Assembly (NCBI GenBank): GCA_025966175.1
Contig: JAOPVN010000108.1
Coordinates: 1-41,587, forward strand
Direction of reading: 5' to 3'
Source: Modestobacter sp.
GTDB lineage: Bacteria > Actinomycetota > Actinomycetes > Mycobacteriales > Geodermatophilaceae
Length of the DNA: 41,587 bases
Shown: in pieces, positions 18,172-21,572 of the stretch
Position numbering within the stretch: position 1 is the first letter of the stretch
Layout of the letters: every line of letters begins with the position of its first letter
The notes under the pieces: model-generated
What the model was told of the DNA's origin: nothing
What the model saw: the letters and a program-made list of their open reading frames with translations, nothing else
Database searches by the model: none
Program-made: the position numbers and the translations under genes

Positions 18172-19107
18172 ATGCCGCTCGACCCGCTCTGGCCGTCCAC
18201 CGAGCCCCGCGACGCCGAGGTGTCCGTGGGAGAGGTCCGCCTCGCCGTCGACCTGCGCGGCGGTGGGCTGCGCGACCTGGTCGTCGGCGACTGGCACCTG
18301 CTCGACGACTACCCCTCCGGCACCGTGCCGGCCGCGCGCCGAGGCGGCGTGCTGCTGCCCTGGCCGAACCGGCTGCGCGGCGGCCGGTGGAGCTGGCGCG
18401 GCCGGGAGCTGCAGCTGGACGTGGTCAGCGAGCAGTCGCCGAACGCGGTGCACGGCCTGGTCAGCGCCCAGCCGTGGACGGTCCTGGCCGAGACCGACGG
18501 CGCGGTCACCGTGGGCACCGTGGTCGAGCCGCGGACCGGGTACCCGTTCCGGCTCGCCGCGGCGATCGACTACGAGCTGACGCCGGAGCGGCTGTCGGTG
18601 ACGGTGCGGGTGCGCAACGCCGGGGATGCCGACGCCCCGCTCGGCGTCGGCATGCACCCCTACTTCTCCGTCGGTGGCGGGTCGGTGGGTGAGCTGCCCG
18701 AGGGGGTGCTGGCCGACCACGAGGTCTCCGTCCCGGCGCGGACGGCGATGGTGACCGACGGTGGACTGCCCACCGGGGAGAGCCGTCCCTTCGACGGCTC
18801 GATCGGCCGGATCGGCGACCGCGTCATCGACGTCCCGCTCACCGACCTGGTCCGGGACGACGACGGCTGGGCGCGGGTGCGCCTGCGCGGGCCGGCCGGG
18901 TCCCTGGAGGTCGCCGTCGACGGTTCGTGGCCGTGGCTGCAGGTCTTCTCCGGCGACACCCTCCCGGCGGGGCAGCGGCGCCGGAGCCTCGCCGTGGAGC
19001 CGATGACCTGCCCGCCCAACGCGCTGGCCGACGGCGTGGACCTGGTCGTGCTGCCACCCGGCGGCACCTGGTCGGGCACCTGGACCCTCGGGTGGACGCC
19101 GGCGTGA
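18172..19107 (+). CDS. Aldose 1-epimerase family protein
   Basis: LLPWPNRLRGGRWSWRGRELQL, NAVHGLVSAQPW, LGVGMHPYF. Confidence 0.9.
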   Translation: MPLDPLWPSTEPRDAEVSVGEVRLAVDLRGGGLRDLVVGDWHLLDDYPSGTVPAARRGGVLLPWPNRLRGGRWSWRGRELQLDVVSEQSPNAVHGLVSAQPWTVLAETDGAVTVGTVVEPRTGYPFRLAAAIDYELTPERLSVTVRVRNAGDADAPLGVGMHPYFSVGGGSVGELPEGVLADHEVSVPARTAMVTDGGLPTGESRPFDGSIGRIGDRVIDVPLTDLVRDDDGWARVRLRGPAGSLEVAVDGSWPWLQVFSGDTLPAGQRRRSLAVEPMTCPPNALADGVDLVVLPPGGTWSGTWTLGWTPA

Positions 19108-19832
19108 GCGGGGACCTGCGGGTGCTGGAGATCTGGCGGTTTCCGGTGAAGTCCCTGCAGGGCGAGCGCCTCGACCGCACCGAGGTCGGCCCGGAGGGGG
19201 TCGCCGGTGATCGGGGCTGGGCGCTGTTCGACGTGGAGACCGGGTTCGGGCTGACCGCCCGCCGGGTGCCCGAGCTGCTGTTCGCCGCGGGCCGATCCCG
19301 CCCCGACGGCGGGGTAGAGGTGGTCCTGCCCGACGGCACGGTCACCGCCGATGACGCCGTCCTCTCCACATGGGCCGGCCGGCAGGTCGCGCTGCGCGCG
19401 GCCGCGCAGGTGGAGGGCGCCCGCCGCTACGAGAGCACGGCCGACCTCGAGCACGAGGACGCCGCACGGTGGAACCCGTTCGGGGGCGCGGACGGCGCCT
19501 TCCACGACAACGCCGACGCCCGGGTGACCCTGCTGTCCACCGGCACCCTCGGCGGCTGGGACCGGCGCCGTTTCCGGGCCAACGTGGTGCTGGCGGGGGC
19601 GGGGGAGGACGCGTTGGTCGGTGCCCGGGTGCGGGCGGGGACCGCGGAGCTGGACGTCGTCGGCCGGGTGCCGCGCTGCGTGATGACGACCCGCCCGCAG
19701 GCCGGGGGCATCGGGCGGGACACCGGGGTGCTCAAGACGATCCACCGGGAGTTCGGCGGGGCCCTGTCGGTCGGTGCCGTGGTGGCCCGGCCGGGCATGC
19801 TCGCGGTGGGCGACGCACTCACCCTGGCTTGA
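19104..19832 (+). CDS. MOSC domain protein
   Basis: LEIWRFPVKSLQGERLDRTEV...GDRGWALFD...RRRFRANVVL...RCVMTTRPQ; GTGA overlap with epimerase. Confidence 0.88.
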   Translation: MSGDLRVLEIWRFPVKSLQGERLDRTEVGPEGVAGDRGWALFDVETGFGLTARRVPELLFAAGRSRPDGGVEVVLPDGTVTADDAVLSTWAGRQVALRAAAQVEGARRYESTADLEHEDAARWNPFGGADGAFHDNADARVTLLSTGTLGGWDRRRFRANVVLAGAGEDALVGARVRAGTAELDVVGRVPRCVMTTRPQAGGIGRDTGVLKTIHREFGGALSVGAVVARPGMLAVGDALTLA

Positions 19833-19837
19833 GTTCG

Positions 19838-19885
19838 GCAGCAAGGTGACTTCGCAGCAAGGTGACTTCGCAGCAAGGTGACTTC
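19838..19885. repeat. 3 perfect tandem copies of GCAGCAAGGTGACTTC (16 bp)
   Basis: Direct reading; overlaps left TIR. Confidence 0.97.
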
Positions 19886-19968
19886 CAGGTGGGAAATGCG
19901 CCGAGCCGACGGCGTGCTGCCCTCGGGTGGGCGGAGTGCTGGCGGGTGGTCCTCACCGGGGGTGAGCC

Positions 19969-20665
19969 CTACCAGGGGCACGACGCCGTGGCGGTCGAAG
20001 AAGCCACCGGGGGGCCCGTCCGGACCGATGGAGGCCATCGCCACGATGGCCTCGGCGCCTTCCTCGACGGACTGGGTGCCGCCGTGCCCGTTGAGGTCGG
20101 TGGCGGTGTAGCCGGGATCGACGGCGTTGATCCGGATCTGCGGGAAGCTCTTGGCGTACTGACTGGTGAGCATGTTCAGCGCGGCCTTCGACGACGGGTA
20201 GGCGAGCCCCCTCCACGCCGACCAGGGCAACGTCGGATCGGTCGTCACCGCAAGGGAACCCAGACCGCTGCTCACGTTGACGATCGCCGGTGCCGGCGAG
20301 CGCAGCAGCAGCGGCAGGAAGGCGTGCGTCACGCGAACGACGCCGAGGACGTTGGTCGCGTGGACCCGCTCCACGTCGTCGGCGGTCGTGTCCTCCGCGG
20401 GCACGGCCCCGCCGCTGATGCCGGCGTTGTTGACGAGCACGTCGAGGGCGCCGCTCTCCGCCTCGACAGCGGCGGCCGCGGCGGTGACGGAGTCGTCGTC
20501 GAGGACGTCAAGGACGACGAACCGGCAGCCGAGCTCGCGCGCCGCGGCCGCGCCGCGCTCGGAGTCACGGGCGACGAGGTAGACGTCGTGGCCTGCCTGA
20601 ACCAGCCGGCGGGCCGCCTCGCGCCCCAGTCCCTTGTTCGCTCCGGTGATCAGTGTGGTGGTCAT
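19969..20665 (-). pseudogene. Short-chain dehydrogenase/reductase, stop lost by apparent +1 in a C-run
   Basis: MTTTLITGANKGLGREAARRL, NNAGIS, YPSSKAALNML; removing one C at 19975-19978 gives ...GVVPW* at 19969. Confidence 0.85.
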
Positions 20666-20710
20666 GTCCACGACCTTGCGCCCGCTCGCGGGCGGCCGGC
20701 CGGCCTGGAC

Positions 20711-20737
20711 GGTGGTGGTACCGCTGGTACCACCACC
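20711..20737. promoter_or_regulatory. Perfect inverted repeat GGTGGTGGTACC-gct-GGTACCACCACC
   Basis: 12-bp arms, 3-bp spacer, in the divergent SDR/XRE promoter region. Confidence 0.75.
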
Positions 20738-20766
20738 GCGCCGCGACGGCGGGCGAGACTGGGCGG

Positions 20767-21117
20767 GTGGACGGAGACGGGTTGGGCGCGGCGCTGCGCG
20801 CATGGCGCGCCCGGGTGCGCCCCGAGGTCGCAGGCGTGCCGTACCGCGGTGCGCGGCGGACCCCCGGGCTGCGCCGCGACGAGGTCGCGATGCTCGCCGG
20901 CGTCTCGGTGGAGTACGTCATCCGGCTGGAGCAGGACCGCGCGAGGCATCCCTCCCGGCAGGTCCTCGACGCGCTCGCACGGGCGCTGCGTCTCTCGGCG
21001 GCCGAGCGGGAGCACCTGCTGCGGCTGGGCGGTGTGACGCCCGCCGAGCCGGGCACGGCCGAGGCGGACGCCCTGGCACTGCTGCGCGTCGTCGGAACGC
21101 AAGCGTTCTCCACCTGA
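20767..21117 (+). CDS. MmyB-type XRE regulator, apparently truncated to the HTH domain (116 aa)
   Basis: RRTPGLRRDEVAMLAGVSVEYVIRLEQDRARHPSRQVLDALARALRLSAAEREHLLRLGG; C-terminal ligand domain absent. Confidence 0.85.
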   Translation: MDGDGLGAALRAWRARVRPEVAGVPYRGARRTPGLRRDEVAMLAGVSVEYVIRLEQDRARHPSRQVLDALARALRLSAAEREHLLRLGGVTPAEPGTAEADALALLRVVGTQAFST

Positions 21118-21356
21118 CCCATCGCCGCCCTCTCACGAGAGCGTTGTCGCCCGCCGTGGGCCACCGATGAGCCCGGCCGACGGAGAGCACACGCCGGCAC
21201 GCATCTCGCCGCCGGTGGCCGTGGTTGCCGTAGGGGCTCCCTGAGGCCGCTCAGCCCGGGAGGCCGGCGACAGCCGCGCCCGAACTCACGGCCTTTCCCA
21301 CCCACAAGTCACCGTGCTGCCGAACTTGCCCTGGCTTGAGGGGGGAGGATCGGCTG

Positions 21357-21572
21357 GTGCGCACCATCGAGCTCCGCTCCGGCGAGAAGTCCATCCGGCT
21401 CGGTCAGCTGCTGAAGCTGGTCGACGCCGTCCCTTCTGGCGCCCAGGTCAAGGACGTCCTGACCGCAGGCGACGTCGCGGTGAACGGCGAGCCCGAGGAG
21501 CGCCGTGGCCGGCAGCTGCACCGCGGCGACGTCGTCTCGGTGGCCGGTCAGGAGGACCTGCGCATCGGCTGA
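21357..21572 (+). CDS. S4-domain RNA-binding protein (71 aa)
   Basis: IRLGQLLKLVDAVPSGAQVKDVLTAGDVAVNGEPEERRGRQLHRGDVVSV. Confidence 0.88.
   Translation: MRTIELRSGEKSIRLGQLLKLVDAVPSGAQVKDVLTAGDVAVNGEPEERRGRQLHRGDVVSVAGQEDLRIG

Follow-up and report, generated by a model that had tools for sequence, protein, structure and literature searches.

Between a MOSC-domain gene and an S4-domain gene, the stretch of Modestobacter sp. DNA considered here (41,587 nucleotides of contig JAOPVN010000108.1; hereafter the window) holds genes for an SDR oxidoreductase and an XRE-type regulator. Two questions are raised by this locus: (i) whether the gene pair arrived as part of a mobile element; and (ii) what could have moved it. 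By Pfam profile search and reading frames, the interval contains only the SDR cargo and a truncated XRE gene, and no transposase. Our reading, to which we assign a probability of about 0.85, is that the interval represents a non-autonomous transposon with a passenger gene, i.e., a mobile insertion cassette, that was inserted by a DDE transposase acting in trans.

The insertion between the MOSC and S4 genes

The element opens with TGAGTTCGGCAGCAAGGTGACTTC and closes with an inverted match to the same sequence (Table 1). A preliminary description of this DNA had reported an inverted pair at 19832-19852 and 21306-21326, which is confirmed at 20 of 21 positions and has no further copy in the window. 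With up to three mismatches allowed, the TIR motif has only these two sites there (shuffles predict 0.00), and the rest of the host assembly yields a single unrelated match with three mismatches; it is not the ordinary dispersed intergenic motif that the description had considered as an alternative. The inverted match continues inward to a GTGGGAAA box at the left and its inverted copy at the right. When an identical 8-mer and inverted tips are scored jointly, the locus reaches 20/24, compared with a maximum of 16/24 in 20 shuffles of a 3.5-kb segment. The CCCTGGCTTGAG repeat that had been noted at 19822-19833 and 21329-21340 is present; however, the duplication is 8 bp long rather than the proposed 10-12 bp. 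The 12-bp direct repeat is only apparent, because the element tip TGAG copies the TGAG of the target.

Table 1. Features of the element and its surroundings in window coordinates
Feature	Positions	Strand	Remarks
MOSC-domain gene	19104..19832	+	Pfam MOSC_N 5.2e-13, MOSC 6.9e-10
Cargo SDR oxidoreductase frame	19427..20665	-	412 aa from ATG 20665; PF00106 (adh_short) 6e-42
Outer target triplet TCA	19819..19821		host side
8-bp target-site duplication, left copy	19822..19829		CCCTGGCT
Whole element	19830..21328		transposase-less insertion with inverted ends, 1499 bp
Left TIR	19830..19853	+	TGAGTTCGGCAGCAAGGTGACTTC; tip TGA
Three perfect tandem copies of 16-bp TIR unit	19838..19885	+	GCAGCAAGGTGACTTC; left end only
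Left subterminal box	19889..19896	+	GTGGGAAA; inverted pair; also present at type-a ends elsewhere (other genomes)
Cargo XRE-type regulator	20767..21117	+	helix-turn-helix part only, 116 aa; HTH_31 2.8e-9
Remnant DNA, truncated XRE to right end	21118..21290		lacks a convincing coding frame
Right subterminal box	21294..21301	-	TTTCCCAC (= GTGGGAAA inverted)
Right TIR	21305..21328	-	CAAGTTCGGCAGCACGGTGACTTG; tip CAA in place of TGA
8-bp duplication, right copy	21329..21336		CCCTGGCT
Outer target triplet TGA	21337..21339	+	stop codon used by MOSC in the empty site
S4-domain gene	21357..21572	+	S4_2 3.4e-22; start GTGCGCACC conserved in relatives

Two minor observations concern other repeats in the window. 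A minus-strand, tip-like TGAGTTCGGGCG lies just inside the right end (21277-21288) and is perhaps a relic of another end. Near the contig start, positions 37-68 and 505-536 form an imperfect inverted duplication (22/24) flanked by CCTCGAGG; it is unlike the TGAGTWCGGC elements described below, and may be an assembly fold-back.

The idea that this is a cargo-only insertion with inverted ends at the MOSC stop codon is supported by related genomes. Relatives do not all carry SDR/XRE here: the S4 gene is present in 42 of 59 relatives, and in 24 of the loci examined, including 17 of the same genus, the MOSC gene immediately precedes it (spacing -1 to 47 bp) and SDR/XRE is absent from between them. 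A typical empty junction reads GTCCCGGCGTGAGGCGGGGAGGATC, and removal of the insert from the window would give CTCACCCTGGCTTGAGGGGGGAGGATC. The insertion is thus real and, on a genus-wide scale, recent. The new stop codon of the MOSC gene is the element's own tip, its first three bases (19830-19832) being TGA, and the S4 gene with its ribosome-binding site (21340-21349) is uninterrupted. With a TGA at the start of the element and the ribosome-binding site of the S4 gene preserved, the insertion has been nearly silent.

The cargo had been described as a divergent SDR/XRE pair. Both genes are there, but as a 3′-truncated SDR/XRE fragment rather than an intact pair. The SDR enzyme domain is whole; its own stop codon has been lost, and the frame crosses the left TIR into antisense MOSC sequence. 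Its relative WP_263235448 (61% identity over 227 aa), on a Streptomyces cynarae plasmid, stands beside and divergent to a full-length XRE regulator; the XRE remnant is 52% identical over residues 4-97 (94 aligned) to WP_263235446, a full-length protein of 291 aa. Since the SDR frame has no stop and the XRE gene is reduced to its helix-turn-helix part, the cargo resembles a piece of an ordinary SDR/XRE pair trimmed at either end, and we infer that it was captured from a chromosomal or plasmid copy of such a pair. The preliminary interpretation was thus largely right, with corrections; the 16-bp tandem units, the TGAG tip, the XRE truncation and the lack of an SDR stop codon within the element go beyond it.

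A family of elements and its target

A search for the end sequences in 115 genomes of the same family (Geodermatophilaceae) found paired inverted ends in G081, G082, G090, G110, G111, G062 and G068. Twenty-three elements were mapped with both ends. They have TGAGTWCGGC tips and range from 136 bp to 4.4 kb, with gene-free units of 136-319 bp among them. The tip is TGAGTTCGGC or TGAGTACGGC, followed by one of several subtype sequences, either that of the window element (GCAAGGTGACTTC..GTGGGAAA) or GCAAGATGAGTTGGTGGGTATAAA, TMATGAGGGTGATGGATCGGGCC, AAACAAGGGTGATGGATGGGTCC, GCAAGGGGTGAAACGGGT or GCAAGCGTTGTTCTGGGTGGGAAAG. The flanking 8 bp are identical in 17 of the 23 and differ by one base in four; they are clearly different in the remaining two, both of which are MITEs between different arrays. 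Three units (L188:7170-8214, L169:759-4496 and L190:6490-7364) have two ends of different subtypes, as if neighbors had recombined. Across 800 kb of G110, exact tips that run on into a known subtype sequence coincide with the array loci described below; a looser tip scan of the same DNA gave mostly noise and was set aside in favor of strict tips.

In most copies TCA-N8-TGA forms a direct repeat of 14 bp, and the division of this repeat between element and target can be read from one element that occurs in two unrelated N8s, GCCGGTGG in L132 and GCTCCCGG in L133. The two copies are alike in their inner triplets (TCG and CTA) and in their outer triplets (TCA and TGA). Because both sets are kept in different N8s, the inner triplets belong to the element and the outer ones to the target; only the 8 bp vary, and duplications of 12 or 14 bp were rejected on this ground. 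The target of the family is TCA-N8-TGA. TCA lies outside the left N8 in 10/10 isolated elements found by end sequence alone (the window element, L123, L125-L128, L131, L132, L133 and L135), a count from which array loci found with a TCA/TGA-containing pattern were left out. As a separate observation, the sole gene seen in the 1.9-kb elements L132:4131-6024 and L133:4317-6209 (in G062 and G068) encodes a TnpB-like protein (NF040570, 5.6e-6); these elements have TCG/TAG tips and sit in two different stop-codon sites, and such ends are absent from the TnpB relatives on Streptomyces and Mycobacterium plasmids.

The element tip (TGA or TAG) serves as stop codon for a frame that has coding composition, as judged by codon-position G+C, at 9 of 12 outer sites, and in L126 it ends such a frame on both sides. 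As background, the window has 771 TGA triplets, of which only 6.4% end a frame of this kind. Raw open-frame length was rejected as a test, control sites being equally long. With N8 giving the last codons and the tip giving the stop, the host protein is therefore unchanged by insertion, a clear case of an element whose evolution has made its sequence harmless, its tip being the stop codon it replaces. The bias toward stop codons may reflect targeting, or else the removal of harmful insertions by selection.

Cassette arrays and the mode of insertion

At several loci (L188/L115, L190, L189, L169, L173, L180 and L183) units adjoin in series, separated by a common N8. Blastococcus sp. RYN_119 (JAODNN010000049.1; L115, L188) has GCCGGTGC at three junctions, an array in G110 has GCTCGTGG at three junctions, and in G111 three copies of CCCGGCGA enclose two cassettes. 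The genome from which the window comes also contains arrays, on contigs C541 and C253 (L169, L168), with GGGTGGCG/CGCCACCC as N8 and RibD_C, GAF histidine kinase, cupin and P450 genes as cargo; the junctions on these contigs are near contig ends and may belong to a single array split by assembly. Cargo elsewhere includes NmrA with cupin and TetR, methyltransferase, RibD_C reductases, mycothiol-S-transferase, SMP-30, GNAT, quinone oxidoreductase, F420-dependent oxidoreductase, metallophosphatase and FGE-sulfatase. A third type of end, CCCTCCTTACGGTGA...TCACCGTAAGGGGGG, bounds a 349-bp unit in G110:C8 (L129:4562-4910), which has an 84-aa ORF without a Pfam match and lies in an array between copies of one N8, AGAACAGC.

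We propose the following scenario for these organizations. A DDE transposase, supplied in trans, would recognize both ends through the TGAGTTCGGC tip, the GCAAGGTGACTTC segment and the GTGGGAAA box. In the window, insertion would have occurred into TCA-CCCTGGCT-TGA at the 3′ end of the MOSC gene with duplication of the 8 bp between the triplets, the gene retaining its last codons and a stop now supplied by the TGA of the element. Each insertion would yield two new TCA-N8-TGA sites at its borders, alongside which later elements could insert, and repeated insertion would produce cassette arrays separated by identical 8 bp. Arrays thus have one N8 because each insertion makes TCA-N8-TGA on both sides, and no assumption beyond this regeneration is needed for array growth. 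Counting against the scenario are the right tip of the window element, which is CAA instead of TGA, and the results on the ends and homologues of the candidate enzyme given below.

An alternative explanation is a tyrosine site-specific recombinase that inserts circles by crossover at an 8-bp core, in a lox-like site of the form CCGAACTCA-N8-TGAGTTCGG. Array junctions do show inverted arms of 9-10 bp that enclose exactly 8 bp, and a single 8 bp is common to all elements of one array. However, four closely alike MITEs in G082 (L125-L128) occupy different 8-bp sequences, so that core identity is not preserved, and the two copies of the TnpB element likewise have different cores, an outcome that crossover dependent on core identity would not give. 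The TCA/TGA host arms are also too short for a recombinase arm, and no recombinase was seen in any element. We consider this explanation unlikely.

Far less probable is that the SDR/XRE block entered by homologous or illegitimate recombination, its repeats being due to chance or to an ordinary intergenic repeat. SDR/XRE pairs are indeed common loci on actinobacterial chromosomes and plasmids, and the truncation of both cargo genes would fit such an event; yet identical 8-mers with inverted tips matching at 20/24 exceed anything in the shuffles, relatives have empty sites, and the same architecture surrounds unrelated cargo in other genomes, such that common ends and duplications already contradict it. 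An integron-type array with overlooked attC sites and integrase is similarly improbable, for although the cargo has the character of integron cassettes (GNAT, RibD_C reductase, DinB/mycothiol transferase) and comes in tandem arrays of one to three genes per unit, every unit is bounded by inverted ends and a matched duplication of 8 bp, the many insertion sites are unrelated and lack attI, some units are gene-free, and no integrase was seen among the loci read.

Within the transposon reading, the window element is by kind a mobile insertion cassette with MITE relatives. Mobile insertion cassettes, a term already in use (PMC4133298, PMC5444012), resemble this family in their inverted ends, which here may be related to those of an autonomous element, in their passenger genes and lack of a transposase, and in presumed mobilization in trans. 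The window element has the inverted ends, the target duplication and passenger genes without a transposase that are expected of the class. The present elements differ from that class in their end family, in the 8-bp duplication at TCA-N8-TGA stop codons, in their stop-replacing tips and in the arrays of unlike cassettes at one N8. An example of a mobile insertion cassette is IS231-MIC of Bacillus cereus, and to our knowledge no comparable stop-codon or array rule exists for mobile insertion cassettes. By the usual description of a MITE (about 30-300 bp, gene-free) the window element, with its two gene remnants, is not one, whereas other members are. The short members, which carry the family ends and duplications, also recall TIMEs, the miniature elements derived from Tn3, which likewise mobilize adjoining DNA but have 38-bp Tn3 ends and duplications of 5-6 bp (PMC4133298). 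The likeness to integron cassettes lies in small metabolic genes gathered in arrays; no attC or integrase is seen, and the inverted ends and duplications point to transposition.

The open literature searched contains no description of these ends or of the stop-codon rule, nor a matching account under Geodermatophilaceae insertion sequences, cassette arrays or stop-codon-specific transposons. The tips, the stop-codon targeting, the arrays and the transposase discussed below thus appear undescribed there, and inverted-repeat elements that insert at stop codons in soil actinobacteria are apparently an undescribed family; this novelty is provisional, because the search was limited to open literature, with ISfinder and closed literature outside its scope. 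An implication is that bacteria would have a second route, besides integrons, to gather small adaptive genes in arrays. In practical terms, paired TCA-N8-TGAGTWCGGC offers a simple signature for unannotated mobile genes in actinobacteria.

A candidate transposase

Among the elements read, only L123:1330-5706 in G081 carries mobility-like genes; it is flanked by identical 8-bp duplications. The two genes overlap and encode a DDE-like protein of 665 aa and a DEDDh exonuclease of 580 aa (RNase_T 4.5e-13). The 665-aa protein has no match in Pfam, NCBIfam or PDB, and one marginal PHROG hit (E=0.027). Its motifs are LLLDD (357/358), VVADAGTG (436), SLWH (459-462) and STGGLE (564), from which D357/358, D436 and E564 were picked by eye as putative catalytic residues. 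To our eye the core appears Mutator-like: the order D..D-A-x-x-G..W-x-H..E is visible in IS256 transposase as well, and the 8-bp duplication of L123 fits this reading, 8-bp duplications being typical of IS256. The Mutator superfamily is characterized by duplications of 8-9 bp and by D..D..E with a C/W-x-x-H motif after the second D. A sequence-sequence hhalign comparison with IS256 transposase gave no support (probability 0.1%), and no Mutator (p-MULT/IS256) profile in Pfam or NCBIfam matched at E<0.1; given the hhalign result, we do not claim Mutator membership. The p-MULT elements (IS256/ISKra4/ISLre2) have a DDE enzyme, as is proposed here, and some follow strict insertion rules (PMC3942029); those known concern sites upstream of promoters rather than stop codons.

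The preliminary description had suggested looking in the host genome for a transposase with matching ends. The L123 element, from G081, shares the TGAGTTCGGCAGCAAGRTGA tip with the window element, but further in its ends read GATGAGTTGGTGGGTATAA, as against GGTGACTTC..GTGGGAAA in the window. No homologue of the 665-aa protein was found in the window's host genome (assembly 81% complete), in G082, G090, G110 and G111, or in the plasmid and phage collections searched. These genomes nevertheless carry such elements, so either other enzymes serve there or the elements are relics. We infer that the 665-aa protein is a candidate transposase representative of the responsible enzyme, and that the window element would have been mobilized in trans by a DDE enzyme of this kind. 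The family then points to a transposase missed by current family libraries. More tentatively, and at slightly under even odds, we suggest that an unrecognized DDE transposase and a DEDDh exonuclease together define an undescribed actinobacterial transposon superfamily, which would constitute an integrase-free cassette-array system that targets stop codons, restores them and regenerates its own target. The pairing of the 665-aa protein with a DEDDh exonuclease in L123 is in itself a possible new type of transposase.
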